In this document: positions 3,595 through 27,163 of the stretch, piece after piece
Position numbering within the stretch: the first letter of the stretch is position 1
Layout of the letters: every line of letters starts with the position of its first letter
DNA from: Bacteroidota bacterium
Lineage (GTDB): Bacteria; Bacteroidota; Bacteroidia; UKL13-3
Direction of reading: 5' to 3'
DNA: 64,000 nucleotides
Assembly: GCA_947477885.1 (NCBI GenBank)
Contig: CANJUD010000001.1
Location: 172,632 to 236,631, forward strand
The notes under the pieces: model-generated
What the model saw: only the letters and a program-made list of their open reading frames with translations
Told to the model about the DNA's origin: nothing
Databases searched by the model: none
Translations under genes and position numbers: made by a program

Positions 3595-4389
3595 TTATCT
3601 TCCGTCACCGTCAAATAAATTTCCGATTCCGCCCAAAATCGAGCCTTCTTCTTTGCGACTACCTGTTCCATAACGCAAAATACGGCCAGCCAAACGACTA
3701 ATGGGCAGCGATTGTATCCACACCTTTCCGGGTCCTTTCAGTGTAGCAAAAAATAAACCTTCTCCTCCAAAAATAGTATTTTTTATCCCACCAACAAATT
3801 CAATATCATAATTCACATCTTTGGTGAATGCTACCAAACAGCCCGTGTCAATTCTCAACATTTCGTATGCTTGCAGCGTTCGTTCCACTATCGTTCCGCC
3901 CGCATGGATAAAGGCCAAGCCATCGCCTTCTAGTTTTTCCATAATAAAACCTTCTCCACCAAAAAGACCCGTTCCTAATTTTTTCTGAAACTCGATTCCC
4001 ACCGATACACCTTTAGCGGCACATAGGAAAGCATCCTTCTGACAAATAACACGTCCGCCCATTTCCATCAAATCCATGGGGACAATTTTTCCTGGATAGG
4101 GAGAGGCAAACGTGACCCTGCGTTTTTGGCTGCCTGTATTGGTAAATGCGGTCATAAATAAACTTTCGCCAACGAGCAAACGCTTGCCTGCCGAAAAAAG
4201 TTTGTCCATAAACCCACCTCCTGACTGAGTTGAGCCATCGCCAAAAATGGTTTCCATCTTAATATCATCCTCCATCATCATAAAACTCCCCGACTCGCCA
4301 ATGACGGTCTCTGTAGAGTCTAGCTCAATCTCCACACATTGCATTTCTTCGCCAATGATGCGGTAATCTATCTCGTGGTTGCTTCTCAT
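3595..4389 (-). CDS. TIGR00266 / AIM24 family protein
   Basis: 264 residues, soluble and rich in Gly and beta strands, with the repeated double-barrel pattern of the AIM24/TIGR00266 family ([17 protein letters not shown] near the start; a [22 protein letters not shown] segment and a second [19 protein letters not shown] segment). The family is widespread in bacteria but its biochemical role is not established; a link to tryptophan RNA-binding-like folds has been noted for AIM24. It is the first gene of the run leading into rfbC and paaD. The start at 4389 is the only plausible ATG before the conserved N-terminus. Confidence 0.85.
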
Positions 4390-4545
4390 AATTATATATT
4401 TTATTTAAAGGGACAAAATTGTGCGAAAAAATGTTACAAACGAAGAATAATTTTTAAGATATGTTTGCAGGAAGAAATTGAGAGGTTCAAACTTTACTCA
4501 TTATCAGGCGTAACAGGTGTATCATCAAATAAAAAATAAACAAAA

Positions 4546-6051
4546 GTGGGCGTAATCAGGCGACAGGGGATGTACTCGGCAATGTTTACCTACAGCGGGT
4601 TTGTAGTGGGGGCATTCAATCTGTTCTTTTTATATACTTATATATTAACCCCTGCACAATTTGGACTTACCAGAGCTTTGATGGCGGTGGGAGCGGTGAT
4701 GATGCAATTTGCCATGATGGCCACTTTCTCGATGATGTACAAATTTTTTCCGTACTACAAAGATTATCTCAAAAAGGAGGAAAGTGATTTTGCGTTCGTT
4801 TCACTGGTTGTTCCTTTTATAGGTTTTGTAATTATAACTTTAGGACTGTTGTTGTTCAAAGATTTTTTTGTATTGAAATTTTCAGAACATTCACCTTTGC
4901 TTGTTGAATATTATTATTATATAATACCTTTCACCTTTTCGTTTCTATATTTTACTATTTTCAAAACACATCTTAATATAAGACTCAACGCTGCTTTTCC
5001 CACTTTTTTGGAAGACTTGGGGTATAAATTATATTCTATTGTAATTGTTATATTCTATTATATAAATGTAATTAGCTTTGAAGTTTTTATGATGCTTTTC
5101 TGCACGTATTATTTTGTGGGATTAATTCCCATGTATTTAAAATTGCGACGCGAAGGGGATTTTCATATCATACCCAAATTGAGCAAAGTAAGCCGCAGAC
5201 TTGGAAAAAAAATATTGTCCTATGGTGGTTTTATATATGCTGGACTCATCATAGGCGAACTCTCTGAATACCTTGCACCCATTATGATTTCGGGGCTTAA
5301 GAGTTTGGAAAATACCGCTGTTTTGAGCATAGCAATTTATTTGGTGGCCGTATTACAAGTGCCGCAAAAGGCTATGTTTGGTGTAACAGTTTCTGTAATG
5401 TCAGATGCATGGAAACGCAAGGATATGGGAACCATTGCAACATTATATAAGAAAACTGCATTGAATATGTTGCTTGCGGGATTGCTTATTTTTGTGGCTA
5501 TTTGGGTCAGTATTGATGATATTTTAGCCTTATTACCGCCTGCATATATGGAAGCTAAACCAGCAGTGTTATTATTATCCTTAGCCAAATTATTTGACTT
5601 AGCTTGCGGAATGAACGGTGAATTATTGAATACTTCCAATTTTTGGAAATTCAATTTTAGCACACAAGTTTTGCTTCTAATCATATTAATCCCAGTCAAT
5701 TATTTATTTATTTCCAATTATGGAATCCTCGGAACAGGCTATGCAGCCTTGGTTTCGCAGTTTATATATAATGGGGTACGGTTTTATTTTATCTATTATA
5801 AATTCAAATTACAACCTTTCACTTTAGATATTGTAAAAGGAATTTTCGCAGCAGGAATTTTATATGCTATTGTGTATTTTATACCCGGATTTACAGGAAA
5901 CAAAATAGAAAGTATTATAAGTATCTGTATTCGTTCTGGAATTTTTGCGGTACTATTTTTAATCGCTATTATATATTTCAGAATTTCAGAAGACATCGCA
6001 CAGTTTTATACTCAAATAATTAGTAGAATGAGAGGAATGATGAGAAAATAA
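4546..6051 (+). CDS. Polysaccharide/lipid-linked oligosaccharide flippase (MATE/Wzx-like)
   Basis: 501 residues with about 12-14 hydrophobic segments along its whole length, the layout of Wzx/MurJ-type flippases of the MOP superfamily. The N-terminus MGVIRRQGMYSAM starts at a GTG (4546); no ATG lies upstream of this conserved opening, and the internal ATG at 4570 would remove it. It would move lipid-linked sugars across the inner membrane. An SDR oxidoreductase follows after 30 bases and rfbC is 1 kb upstream on the other strand, so the area leans toward surface glycans, but no glycosyltransferase is present. The exact substrate cannot be read from the sequence. Confidence 0.8.
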   Translation: MGVIRRQGMYSAMFTYSGFVVGAFNLFFLYTYILTPAQFGLTRALMAVGAVMMQFAMMATFSMMYKFFPYYKDYLKKEESDFAFVSLVVPFIGFVIITLGLLLFKDFFVLKFSEHSPLLVEYYYYIIPFTFSFLYFTIFKTHLNIRLNAAFPTFLEDLGYKLYSIVIVIFYYINVISFEVFMMLFCTYYFVGLIPMYLKLRREGDFHIIPKLSKVSRRLGKKILSYGGFIYAGLIIGELSEYLAPIMISGLKSLENTAVLSIAIYLVAVLQVPQKAMFGVTVSVMSDAWKRKDMGTIATLYKKTALNMLLAGLLIFVAIWVSIDDILALLPPAYMEAKPAVLLLSLAKLFDLACGMNGELLNTSNFWKFNFSTQVLLLIILIPVNYLFISNYGILGTGYAALVSQFIYNGVRFYFIYYKFKLQPFTLDIVKGIFAAGILYAIVYFIPGFTGNKIESIISICIRSGIFAVLFLIAIIYFRISEDIAQFYTQIISRMRGMMRK

Positions 6052-22870: not shown

Positions 22871-23035
22871 ATGGACGAGGTACAAGAAGAAATAAAACCA
22901 CAAAAATATAAATGGCTTAAAAAGCTAGGTATATGGACCGTGGTGTTCTTTATTGTAAAAGGAACAATAAGCACCATACTTATATACTACTTCGGAAAAG
23001 GAATTTGGGAATATGTGGGAGAATGGTTCAAGTAA
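22871..23035 (+). CDS. Small single-pass membrane protein
   Basis: 54 residues: a charged N-terminus (MDEVQEEIKPQKYKWLKK), one hydrophobic helix (about residues 20-42, with WTVVFFIVKGTISTILIYYF) and a short aromatic tail. It is preceded by a GTATTTTGTG box-like sequence at 22849-22858 and lies between the coiled-coil gene and ssrA. Small proteins of this shape occur widely in Bacteroidota, but I cannot name a family. Its stop is directly followed by the CAGT palindrome. Confidence 0.6.
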   Translation: MDEVQEEIKPQKYKWLKKLGIWTVVFFIVKGTISTILIYYFGKGIWEYVGEWFK

Positions 23036-23162
23036 GTGGTCAGTAAACAGTAGTCAGTAGTCAGTGCCATACGGCAGCAAACTTGACCGTTTGTTCCGAA
23101 ATGTTGGAGCAAATCGGGATTATATAGCCGTATGGCACTGACCACTGTTTACTAACCACTGT
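23036..23162. repeat. CAGT-type palindromic repeat, second copy
   Basis: The left arm (23036-23075) and right arm (about 23127-23160) are imperfect reverse complements; the left arm carries one extra 7-base tagtcag unit. The outer part matches the 8466-8540 element, and both copies contain GCCGTATGGCACTGAC/GCCGAATGGCACTGAC next to the right arm. It ends 12 bases before ssrA, so it lies in or over the ssrA promoter region. Confidence 0.8.
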
Positions 23163-23173
23163 ATACTAATATT

Positions 23174-23548
23174 GGGGCTGACCGGAATTGACGGGATGTG
23201 AGGCCCGGGGGTAAGCATGCAGTGCCTTGTAAGGGAGCACTTTAATCTGAACTTTCACGCTGTAACAGGCAACAATTCATTACAATTAGCTGCCTAATCG
23301 GTTAGATTACGCACTCGCTAGTCGTTTGCAGGAACTTCGCCCCAACAGCACCTGAGCACAGACGATCAAAACCCCGTTGGGGACTTTTGGCTACCGTGGT
23401 TACGGGTTTCCAAATGTATTAGTAACCTAAGGAATAAGTTGGTGAGCGGGACTCCTGCCTATTCTCTAAAATTAAATTTCCTGACAAGCATGTAGAAAGC
23501 TCTAACGAGTCCCATCTCCGGACCAGGGTTCGACTCCCTGCAGCTCCA
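23174..23548 (+). ncRNA. ssrA: tmRNA (ssrA)
   Basis: Transfer-messenger RNA that rescues stalled ribosomes with SmpB. The 5' end GGGGCTGACC pairs with the 3' end CAGCTCC (acceptor stem with one G-U), and the T arm is GGACCAGGGTTCGACTCCCTG. The start of the tag frame is at 23268: it reads GNNSLQLAA then stop (23268-23297), so the appended peptide would be A-GNNSLQLAA. The LAA end is the normal protease signal. CCA is not encoded. Its 3' end is duplicated at 25470-25483, and its probable original terminator now lies 1.9 kb away at 25483-25521. Confidence 0.95.
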
Positions 23549-23550
23549 CA
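23537..23550 (+). repeat. attL-like copy of the ssrA-end direct repeat
   Basis: CCTGCAGCTCCACA, the functional tmRNA 3' end. Identical to 25470-25483. Confidence 0.75.
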
Positions 23551-23696
23551 CTATTAAAATGTAATAGCCTGTAAATTAGTATATTTATGGGCTTTATGTT
23601 TTATTTACACTCCAAATTTACACTCCATTAGTGGGTTTAACTCATACTTTTAAGAGCAACACAAGGTTTAATTTTCTGTTCAAAAAATATCATTTG

Positions 23697-23749
23697 ATAC
23701 CCCTCTTCTTTTTTCGCAATTACACGCGAAAACATAAATACGGCGGTTA
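23697..23749. repeat. Islet direct repeat, copy A
   Basis: 53 bases nearly identical to 24394-24446, sharing ATACCCCTCTT, a T run, TTACACGCGAAAACATAAA and ACGGCGGTTA with about 6-7 mismatches. Read on the minus strand both begin ATG TTT TCG CGT GTA (MFSRV) and keep the AKK/TKK-x-EGY pattern, so they may be remnants of a duplicated gene start. Confidence 0.75.
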
Positions 23750-23838
23750 CAATTGCGAAGGTTGTAAAGATTTTACCGGATACCCGCAAAAAATCAAGTG
23801 CTATATTTACTAAAACAACCCCAATGTTAATATTCCAA

Positions 23839-24270
23839 TCAAAATAAACCTGTAGCTGATGCAACTGCGGTAATCCCGATGGCCAAAATAAAAAGAATTG
23901 TAAGCATACAACCTTTATTGCCAGCAGAAACATTTTTCAATTCCTCATCTGCTGCACCAGTCAAAGCCTTACTAAATCGCTCCAAAAAAGCATCAATCAT
24001 TTTATCAACTGTGACTTGATGGCCACTATTTCTGATTTTTTCAGAAACCACAATATGGATACTGGTTTTGCTGTTTTCCAAAGATTTTAAAGTAACATTC
24101 ATTGAAATAGTTTCAAGCCCAGTAAGTTTTCCAATGCGATATGTGTTCAATATGTCATTTTGAGAATGCATAGCGTAGGCTCCTACTTTTACGGTTCTTT
24201 CAATATCCTGCTTTACTTTTTCCATTGGAAAATCTAAATCAAGGGTTCTTTCGATGTTTAGTGATGACAT
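23839..24270 (-). CDS. Islet hypothetical protein with C-terminal membrane helix
   Basis: 143 residues. A soluble N-terminal part of about 115 residues with alternating strands and helices (LDLDFPMEKVKQDIERTVKV, then SIHIVVSEKIRN) is followed by a glycine-containing hydrophobic helix (GCMLTILFILAIGITAVASA). The pattern of a small sterol-carrier/SRPBCC-like domain with a tail anchor is possible but I cannot confirm it. It has its own -7 box at 24284-24291 and lies inside the ssrA islet, flanked by the duplicated 53 bp sequence. Confidence 0.65.
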   Translation of the reverse strand: MSSLNIERTLDLDFPMEKVKQDIERTVKVGAYAMHSQNDILNTYRIGKLTGLETISMNVTLKSLENSKTSIHIVVSEKIRNSGHQVTVDKMIDAFLERFSKALTGAADEELKNVSAGNKGCMLTILFILAIGITAVASATGLF

Positions 24271-24283
24271 AATTTTTTTTTTG

Positions 24284-24291
24284 CAAATGTA
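24284..24291 (-). promoter_or_regulatory. Bacteroidota -7 box of the islet gene
   Basis: On the minus strand TACATTTG fits TAnnTTTG and lies 13 bases before the ATG at 24270. 24292-24586 contains copy B of the islet repeat and otherwise no gene that I can see. Confidence 0.5.
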
Positions 24292-24393
24292 AAAGCAAAT
24301 GACAAAATAAGTACTTTAAAAAAAGAGGTATTGTTGCTTTAAAACAATTTTTAGTTTAACCCACACCTATAATTCCAAATAATACTCAAAATA

Positions 24394-24446
24394 ATACCCC
24401 TCTTGTTTTTTAGTATTTACACGCGAAAACATAAACACGGCGGTTA
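24394..24446. repeat. Islet direct repeat, copy B
   Basis: Second copy of the 53-base sequence at 23697-23749. The two copies flank the 143-residue gene at 23839-24270. Confidence 0.75.
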
Positions 24447-24586
24447 ATCTTCGTAATGTGTAGAGATTTGACCCCTGCCCCCTTTTGTTTCAAAAATCGT
24501 AAAGTAGATTTGACTTGGCGATGTGGCGGACTTAGAAGCACTATGCTTTCAAATTGCCACTAAAGTTTATATCCCTGATAATAATA

Positions 24587-24934
24587 TTAATTTCTACAAT
24601 CGATCATTACTGTTCCTCCTTCACTAATGTATACTTTGTTGACTCTGCTATCATCTTTATAATGCCCTTCTAAGTCTTTCCTTAAGTCCTCATATTCTTC
24701 ATTACTCACAGCCTTTAAAACTTTTACATTAATTAATCGCCCTATGGGAGTTATTGAATAAAGTCCATCGGTTGTTGTTTTCGAGTGTTCTGAACCTCCA
24801 AGCAATCCGTAGCTGCTATAATCTGTTTGTAATGATTGTACAAATGCATCTGTTTCCTTAAATAACTCATCCTTGCTTGGAGAGCATCCAATAACAAAAA
24901 TCAAACTAATAAAATAAACTAGTATTTTCCTCAT
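24587..24934 (-). CDS. Islet lipoprotein
   Basis: 115 residues from ATG 24934 (MRKILVYFISLIFVIGC): a short signal ending in the lipobox FVIGC. A longer start at 24964 would place ten polar residues before the signal and is rejected. The mature part (SPSKDELFKETDAFVQSLQT and a GRLINVKVLKAVSNEEYEDL stretch) has no known motif. It follows the broken gene at 24946-25094 on the same strand, inside the islet. Confidence 0.6.
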   Translation of the reverse strand: MRKILVYFISLIFVIGCSPSKDELFKETDAFVQSLQTDYSSYGLLGGSEHSKTTTDGLYSITPIGRLINVKVLKAVSNEEYEDLRKDLEGHYKDDSRVNKVYISEGGTVMIDCRN

Positions 24935-24945
24935 TTTTTTAACCC

Positions 24946-25094
24946 CTATTTGTGTCGGGTGCAACTTTTAATTTCTCCTGTTCTAACGGCTTCACAGGTA
25001 TTGCCATTGTCCGTAATTAAAAAATTGCAACTTCAAACTCCGTTTTGAGTTCAATTTCTGACTTATCGGTTTTTTGTAATTGATCATTTGCCAT
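24946..25094 (-). pseudogene. Frameshifted small islet gene
   Basis: From ATG 25094 the frame reads MANDQLQKTDKSEIELKTEF and EVAIF and stops at 25017 within a 6-T run. With one extra T the frame would continue LITDNGNTCEAVRTGEIKSC to a stop at 24946. The coherent continuation suggests one gene of about 48 residues broken by a single-base change (or a homopolymer error). Function unknown. Confidence 0.4.
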
Positions 25095-25132
25095 TGGGCA
25101 AATGTAATAATAAACTTCTAAATCCTATAAAA

Positions 25133-25381
25133 TTAAGTAACTACCATTCCAGTAATAACTTTGATTTCAACTTGCTCAAAATCTATTTTTGTCGGCGAAT
25201 AGTCCCCTTCCATTCGGTTAAGTTCAGCTATTGCCCTAATTCTATCAGACCATACAGGAATATTATTACCTTCAATTATTGTTTCCCCTGTAGCAATTTG
25301 GGAAAATATTACCAGTTAGCTTAACATCGCTATATCAATGCGGTCAGAAACAACTATACTTGGATTTAGTTCTTTTGCCAT
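25133..25381 (-). pseudogene. Broken islet gene, phage terminase small subunit-like
   Basis: From ATG 25381 (MAKELNPSIVVSDRIDIAML) the frame stops at 25316. An adjacent frame continues VIFSQIATGETIIEGNNIPV, then WSDRIRAIAELNRMEGDYSP TKID-type sequence, ending at 25133. The 'RIRAIAELNRMEGDYSPTK' pattern recalls DNA-binding small terminase subunits of phages, which would fit a decayed prophage at ssrA. This is pattern memory only, not a database result. 25382-25469 shows nothing further. Confidence 0.4.
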
Positions 25382-25469
25382 AGTGTAAGTTGAGTATTTC
25401 TATGATGCAACCAAAAAACTACTACTTTAAAGCCATATAAATATTATTTTAGTTTTTGCAGTTAATGAG

Positions 25470-25483
25470 CCTGCAGCTCCACA
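25470..25483 (+). repeat. attR-like copy of the ssrA-end direct repeat
   Basis: CCTGCAGCTCCACA, identical to the tmRNA 3' end over 14 bases; the sequence to its left (ttaatgag) no longer matches the T arm, and a terminator follows directly. Confidence 0.75.
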
Positions 25484-25521
25484 AAAAAGCCCGCTGATAA
25501 TTTTATCGGCGGGCTTTTTTA
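25483..25521. terminator. Displaced ssrA terminator, also usable by the M28 gene
   Basis: Stem 25489-25499 with 25504-25514 (GCCCGCTGATA/TATCGGCGGGC, one G-U) flanked by AAAAAA and TTTTTT. It begins directly after the second copy of the tmRNA 3' end, so before the insertion it would have ended ssrA. It lies between convergent transcripts and works in both directions. Confidence 0.88.
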
Positions 25522-25538
25522 TTATATACTTTTAAAAT

Positions 25539-26537
25539 TTATTTCTCATTATATATAACTTCCATCACCACCTGCCCCACATTTTTTAAGGTGAACTTAC
25601 TGATGTTTTTAATATTGTCGTTATGGGTGTGCCAAGTATGGCTGAAATGGTCGCCAACGCCTTTGTCTTTGGTATATTCTATAATATCAATCACGGGTAT
25701 TTTGGCAATGGTGTTTAAATAGTAATGGTCGTCAATAATTCCATTATTCTCTTCGGCAATAAAATTTGTATAGCCCAATTTATTTCCCATAGCCCAAACT
25801 TTCTCTACGATAGTTGGGGCAAATTCCATCGAACCTTTTTCTTTAACAAACTGTGCATCGGGGGCACCCACCATATCGAGCAAAATTCCATAGGCCGGCA
25901 TATAGTTTTTTACATGTCGGTTCTTGGCCCAGTATTGCGAACCAATACAATAACTATCTTCCATTTGTTCCAACTCACTTTCGCCGGGTTGGCCATAATC
26001 TTCCAAATCGAAAAGTATAATATCAATTCCAATTTCAGTAGGTTTTTGTTTAAGCTGTCGGGCTATTTCTAATAATACACCTACGCCACTTCCACCATCA
26101 TTGGCACCATCAATGGGTTTGTCCTTATCTTTTTCATCTTGGTCGGCAAAGGGGCGTGTATCCCAATGGGCACAAAGCATCACGCGTTTTGTTGCTTGCA
26201 AATTAAATGAACCAATAATGTTTTTACATTGATGTGTTTTACCATCAAAAGTTTTTAAAGGTGCTCCATTTATTTCTACTTTTTCGGCATATTTTTTTAA
26301 TTCTTTTATCAGATAATCCGCACATAGTTTATGACCATTGGTGCTTGGAACCCGTGGGCCAAAATTGCATTGGGCAACCACATAAGCAAAAGCAGTATCG
26401 CCATTAAACTCAGGCGATAATTGCTTGTATGCTGGCACAGCAGGCTGCTCAATAATTTTTGATGGGTCGTCTTTTGGATTGTTTTTGCAGGCTGTAATGG
26501 CAGCAAAAAATAAGGTTATATATAATAGTTTTTTCAT
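25539..26537 (-). CDS. M28 family metallopeptidase / glutaminyl cyclase-like lipoprotein
   Basis: 332 residues from ATG 26537 (MKKLLYITLFFAAITACKNN), a lipoprotein signal with lipobox AITAC. The M28 zinc fold follows: LCAHWDTRPFADQ (His, Asp ligands), GANDGGSGVGVLLE (bridging Asp), LFDLEDYGQPGE (Glu), and HTWHTHNDN near the C-terminus. The LEDYGQPG type is closest to glutaminyl-peptide cyclotransferase-like members, so it may be an aminopeptidase or cyclise N-terminal Gln of exported proteins. Its ATG overlaps the TGA of the upstream PPTase gene (ATGA), so the two are translationally coupled. Confidence 0.9.
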   Translation of the reverse strand: MKKLLYITLFFAAITACKNNPKDDPSKIIEQPAVPAYKQLSPEFNGDTAFAYVVAQCNFGPRVPSTNGHKLCADYLIKELKKYAEKVEINGAPLKTFDGKTHQCKNIIGSFNLQATKRVMLCAHWDTRPFADQDEKDKDKPIDGANDGGSGVGVLLEIARQLKQKPTEIGIDIILFDLEDYGQPGESELEQMEDSYCIGSQYWAKNRHVKNYMPAYGILLDMVGAPDAQFVKEKGSMEFAPTIVEKVWAMGNKLGYTNFIAEENNGIIDDHYYLNTIAKIPVIDIIEYTKDKGVGDHFSHTWHTHNDNIKNISKFTLKNVGQVVMEVIYNEK

Positions 26538-27163
26538 AAAATAGTTTCTATAGCCCACACCAATAAATAATCATTGCTGTGTCGGTAGTGCAAATTAAAG
26601 TGTTTTTCATAAGTTTTCTTATGTATATGCCCCACAAATGTAGCATCATTTTTCAGTATCGTGATATGCTTGATAAAGTCCAGTTCTTTTTGTTCGTAGA
26701 GTTTATATAAGCACTCTTTGCTGCACCATACCATCAGTGCATCTTCGGGTGTTGAGGAGGCCCAGGTTTTTTCTTTTTCGTTCAAAAATTTATGTTTGAT
26801 CCGTTCTACTTTCTCCAATTTGGTTTCTATATCAATCCCTGTATTACAATTACTGATAGAAACTGCAGCATGTGTTTGCGAGTGCGAAACTGATATATAT
26901 ATATTGTCGTGATTAGAAATCATCAATTTTCCAAAATCAGTTTTATATAATTCTATAGTACGATAATCCTTTAAAATTGTTCCAAGCAAAATTCGTGTAG
27001 CGAGCCACTGTCGGTGGTTTTCGGGATGTGTAAATAAATCGGGCTTGCTTTTATCTATTATATTTCCGGGCAATTGTTTCTCCAAAGAATGTATATCTTC
27101 GGTAATTTCCCACACTGCTATTTGTGTTCCTGTTGGTTGTTCGCATTGCCAAATAATCGGCAT
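26534..27163 (-). CDS. 4'-phosphopantetheinyl transferase
   Basis: 209 residues from ATG 27163 (MPIIWQCEQPTGTQ). A longer frame to 27214 overlaps the upstream Fe-S gene and is rejected. The Sfp/AcpT signature is present: NTGIDIETK (GxD) near residue 110 and WCSKECLYKLYEQ (W/FxxKExxxK) near 155. It moves the phosphopantetheine arm of CoA onto a carrier protein. No carrier protein, NRPS or PKS gene is in the window. Its start is 2 bases after the Fe-S gene stop, and its stop overlaps the M28 start. Confidence 0.88.
   Translation of the reverse strand: MPIIWQCEQPTGTQIAVWEITEDIHSLEKQLPGNIIDKSKPDLFTHPENHRQWLATRILLGTILKDYRTIELYKTDFGKLMISNHDNIYISVSHSQTHAAVSISNCNTGIDIETKLEKVERIKHKFLNEKEKTWASSTPEDALMVWCSKECLYKLYEQKELDFIKHITILKNDATFVGHIHKKTYEKHFNLHYRHSNDYLLVWAIETIL

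Follow-up and report, generated by a model that had tools for sequence, protein, structure and literature searches.

The window analysed here, a stretch of 64,000 nucleotides from a Bacteroidota genome of 3.1 Mb, carries ssrA on the plus strand, with the tmRNA start placed at 23174 and its end called at 23549 or 23551 by ARAGORN and Rfam (RF00023). The last 14 nt of the gene, CCTGCAGCTCCACA, are repeated exactly downstream and in the same orientation, and the 1.92 kb between the two copies (23551-25469), referred to as the islet, hold two small intact genes, gene remnants and several repeats. The following features were assigned:

23174..23550, plus strand: ssrA (tmRNA), its 3' end being the attachment site (ARAGORN, Rfam RF00023)
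23537..23550, plus strand: attachment core copy 1, the presumably restored ssrA 3' end (exact repeat)
23555..23603, plus strand: islet-borne hairpin, the likely replacement terminator of ssrA (fold, z -4.9)
23604..23626, plus strand: direct repeat pair TTTACACTCC-AAA-TTTACACTCC, presumed integrase arm sites (same pair at the ends of the C7 element described below and in G002 and G005)
23697..23788, minus strand: first copy of a ~90-nt block that also lies beside the end of the intact C7 element (sequence match)
23839..24270, minus strand: intact accessory gene of 143 aa (ORF)
24392..24482, minus strand: second ~90-nt block copy, with 89% identity to that of the C7 element (sequence match)
24587..24931 (or 24964), minus strand: intact accessory gene for a small lipoprotein-like protein (ORF)
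~24965..25131, minus strand: decayed gene remnant with a broken frame (translation)
25132..25311, minus strand: 3' end of the element's 144-aa gene, its last 60 codons, the remainder being lost (87% amino acid and 88% nucleotide identity)
25470..25483, plus strand: attachment core copy 2, the presumably displaced original ssrA 3' end (exact repeat)
25483..25520, plus strand: strong terminator, the presumed original follower of ssrA, kept in G001 (hairpin fold)
25539..26558, minus strand: M28 peptidase gene, the chromosomal right flank (3' of ssrA in all three genus members)

An inverted repeat, AGTGGTCAGTAAACAGTAGTCAGT / ACTGACCACTGTTTACTAACCACT, was also seen just 5' of ssrA at 23035-23160.

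The exact repeat of the tmRNA 3' end claimed in the initial annotation was confirmed, as were the two intact and two broken minus-strand genes between the copies, the absence of any integrase from 23551-25469, and the strong hairpin terminator into which the second copy runs directly (~25483-25520, 18-bp arms, -25.9 kcal/mol, z -8). A frequent occurrence of the 14 bp repeat away from ssrA, named there as grounds for refutation, does not hold: the whole genome contains two copies of CCTGCAGCTCCACA, both at the islet, and none of the reversed control. In 500 shuffled versions of the islet the best core match never exceeded 12/14, and other stretches of the window reached 10/14 at most unless a real copy lay inside. 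The GC content of the islet is 33.0%, compared to 37.3% for the window. Additions to the earlier description are the paired repeat at 23604-23626, a 53-nt repeat at 23697 and 24394, and a hairpin immediately after ssrA (23555-23603, -17.8 kcal/mol, z -4.9). As the islet supplies this hairpin, transcription of the tmRNA is probably still terminated. The 143-aa protein shows a C-terminal membrane segment by eye and gave no match in Pfam and NCBIfam searches, and the lipoprotein-like gene has homologues of 59-75% identity in two other genera. Both genes are patchily distributed, in 6 and 5 of 395 genomes of the class respectively, the own genome counted. Scans of viral contigs gave no relatives of either gene, and relatives were likewise absent among the phages searched for the lipoprotein-like gene and among the plasmids searched for the 143-aa protein.

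When the islet DNA was used as query against its own genome, matches were obtained on contig C7 at 77241-77512 and 81928-81954. These belong to an intact element of ~5.0 kb (G000:C7:77076-82091; L078 5077-10092) with a GC content of 32.6%, which is inserted in tRNA-Arg(CCT) and bounded by direct repeats of 20 bp, TTTGTAGTCCCGGCGAGAAT, of which one forms the 3' end of the tRNA gene. All its genes lie on one strand and encode a phage-type tyrosine recombinase of 445 aa (PF00589, PF13102 and PF17293, with Phage_int_SAM_5 / Arm-DNA-bind_5 among the domains named) and proteins of 358, 101 (HTH/excisionase-like), 99 (winged-helix-like), 229 and 144 aa. The repeat pair TNTACACTCCAARTTTACACTCC is found at both ends of the element. 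Islet and C7 element have the TTTACACTCCAAATTTACACTCC pair in common, 54-56 bp inside the attachment site (54 bp from core to arm in the islet, 56 bp in the C7 element), and the islet arm repeats agree with the integrase-side arms of C7 at 27/27. From their position, their repetition and the Arm-DNA-bind domain of the integrase, these pairs are presumed to be integrase arm sites. Further matches between islet and C7 element cover 180 nt (88%), 93 nt (89%) and an end segment of 190 nt (73%). Read from the core, the islet shows the repeat pair and a first ~90-nt block; a second block copy comes later, as do the final 60 codons of the 144-aa gene. Block and 144-aa gene are adjacent in C7, whereas in the islet the lipoprotein-like gene separates the block from the 144-aa stub. 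The islet has no counterparts of the C7 integrase, the other C7 genes and the second repeat pair, of which none is left at its right end. As the shared parts are the arm pair, the block and the 3' end of the 144-aa gene, the islet has lost the stretch from the first part of this gene through the integrase and the integrase-side end. The orientation also differs, with the integrase-side end facing the RNA gene in C7 and the other end facing ssrA in the islet. Because the C7 relative uses another target and turns the opposite end toward it, the lost islet integrase would have differed in specificity from that of C7. A search for a full-length element with the same internal genes next to an integrase had been suggested in the initial annotation. 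The C7 element shares the end of the 144-aa gene; the nearest homologues of the two intact islet genes had no adjoining integrase or end repeats within the short stretches inspected.

Comparison within the genus covered two other genomes, G001 and G002, and the synteny up- and downstream of ssrA is kept in all three. G001 has no islet; its ssrA is followed by ~57 bp with their own terminator and then by TCCACAAAAAAGCCCGCTGAT...GCGGGCTTTTTT, the right-hand terminator of the window, a different gene and the M28 peptidase gene. The gene in this ssrA-M28 interval of G001 (L033 ~3760-5260) encodes ~430 aa (MTAVVGILNKQAVAIAADSAVT...), represents another insertion at the same place, and gave no significant match in Pfam. 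In G002 a stretch resembling a hairpin comes after ssrA, then the TTTACACTCC pair and, before M28, ~0.55 kb in which no clear gene is seen; a second core copy was not found there (best 8/14), so that only the ssrA-side repeat pair is kept. The element end at ssrA may be common to G002 or may have been gained there separately. From these two layouts it follows that the islet in its present form is not genus-wide, and the idea that relatives carry the same 1.9 kb as deep as the phylum, which would have spoken against an insertion, does not hold. The expected empty site was only partly recovered: G001 is free of the islet and keeps the terminator, but the ~57 extra bp with a second terminator take the place of a direct join, and a base-perfect site with ssrA joined directly to AAAAAAGCCCGCTGAT was found in neither congener.

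The survey of relatives covered 49 with an ARAGORN-placed tmRNA. In seven of them (G017, G024, G029, G031, G033, G052 and G054) a tyrosine recombinase ORF, codirectional with ssrA, begins no more than ~250 bp from the tmRNA 3' end. In G017 the core recurs over 16 bp at +50.9 kb, and the sequence behind this copy resembles the direct follower of ssrA in G004. The copy in G054 measures 14 bp, lies at +17.8 kb and leads into a hairpin with a T run. Duplicated ssrA ends were also detected at +6.4 kb in G004, at +0.96 kb in G016 (then a terminator like that at its ssrA) and at +4.4 kb in G038 (then the same terminator sequence as at its ssrA); short duplications are present in G011, G027 and G055. 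These data, together with the Islander survey, in which the tmRNA gene was more enriched as a target than any tRNA type (PMC4383910), bear out the earlier statement that tmRNA 3' ends are integration sites for tyrosine recombinases. The insertion at ssrA in G017, a member of the same family, amounts to ~51 kb and is integrase-bearing (G017:C37:165010-224900; L103-L105).

Therefore, from the intact integrase-bearing C7 relative, the confinement of the core to ssrA, the islet-free G001 and the like duplications in relatives, the islet is very probably the remnant of a site-specific integrative element of the C7 lineage that was inserted at ssrA and then collapsed, as the initial annotation had supposed. 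Decisive for a decayed integrative element is that the C7 relative shares its end repeats and a gene end. As the islet lacks an integrase of its own, it is classed as a remnant and not as an active island, and the integrase-bearing relative resides in tRNA-Arg instead of ssrA; an intact element of the lineage at ssrA was not found.

A possible, though clearly less probable, origin is a composite one, in which ssrA was hit repeatedly and the lipoprotein-like and 143-aa genes were brought by separate insertions of related elements. The end block is present twice (23697 and 24392), as two tandem element ends would give, the second copy being devoid of the arm pair, and multiple core copies at ssrA are seen in relatives such as G011. 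However, just two core copies remain with none in the middle of the islet, and a single insertion that brought both cargo genes is the simpler account. Very unlikely is an array of integron-like cassettes, each a gene with the ~90-nt repeat as attC-like site. A same-strand copy of the block follows each of the two islet genes as well as the 144-aa gene of C7, and on the gene side all three copies cease to be similar at about one position, but the genome has no more than these three copies, an integron integrase was not identified, and the block folds not clearly better than its shuffles on either strand (z between -1.3 and 0.4), which led to the rejection of the attC reading, a hairpin fold being expected for integron gene cassettes. 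That the 14 bp repeat is due to chance, or that the ssrA end was duplicated locally without a recombinase, would fit an islet devoid of integrase, but is hardly tenable in view of the core frequency and the shuffles, and is contradicted by the integrase-bearing C7 element with its common ends.

For the remnant of a C7-type element we infer the recombination event and the order of the deletions as follows. A tyrosine recombinase would have recombined the circular attP of the element, furnished with a copy of the ssrA 3' end and its own terminator, with the 3' end of ssrA; the element would have come from the lineage to which the intact ~5 kb tRNA-Arg element of C7 belongs. Integration would have restored ssrA at the left and moved the original 14 bp end and its terminator to the right. 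Later loss of the integrase, most other genes and the integrase-side end would have left behind the attachment copies, one arm-repeat pair, the two accessory genes and gene stubs. The islet resembles Islander-type islands in its restored RNA gene 3' end, in the displaced fragment in the same orientation, which marks the far end of an island (PMC4383910), and in the tyrosine recombinase of its intact relative. It differs in its lost integrase and a length of <2 kb, and the integrase and length filters of Islander would discard it; such islets escape island finders. It illustrates how, at a hot spot, an element decays while an element-supplied 3' end and terminator keep the RNA gene intact.

As a remnant of a tmRNA-integrated element the islet is of an ordinary kind, and the most interesting by-product is the uncommon, small and almost unmatched C7 element to which it leads in its own genome. 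The C7 integrase is of the type found in Bacteroidota phage-type integrative elements (Phage_int_SAM_5 / Arm-DNA-bind_5 integrases) and is 32-37% identical to integrases of Porphyromonas phages and human-gut phage contigs. Unlike those elements, C7 measures only ~5 kb and has no recognised structural genes, and its genes other than the integrase matched almost nothing in the libraries searched. The 144-aa protein resembles a small terminase by eye, gave no matches in Pfam, PHROG, NCBIfam and PDB, and its fold model was poor. Scans of viral contigs with the C7 integrase and the 144-aa protein revealed no relatives, nor did a scan of the genome contig collection with the integrase. It is a speculative and rather improbable idea that the ~5 kb lineage (C7, its G005 relative and the ssrA remnants of G000 and G002) represents a tiny phage satellite, not described so far, that lives in freshwater Bacteroidota. 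Cargo genes, each accompanied by a ~90-nt block copy, would be captured between the end of this satellite and its last gene. The arm pattern TACACTCCRARWTTACACTCC had no match in viral contigs and one exact match in a collection of 84,980 genomes, where records of the own or very near genomes may be omitted. This match comes from a deep Lake Baikal MAG listed as Flavobacteriaceae, on a contig that corresponds to G005:C5; the repeat pair lies there 5' of an integrase which is 84% identical to that of C7 and is again located at tRNA-Arg(CCT).
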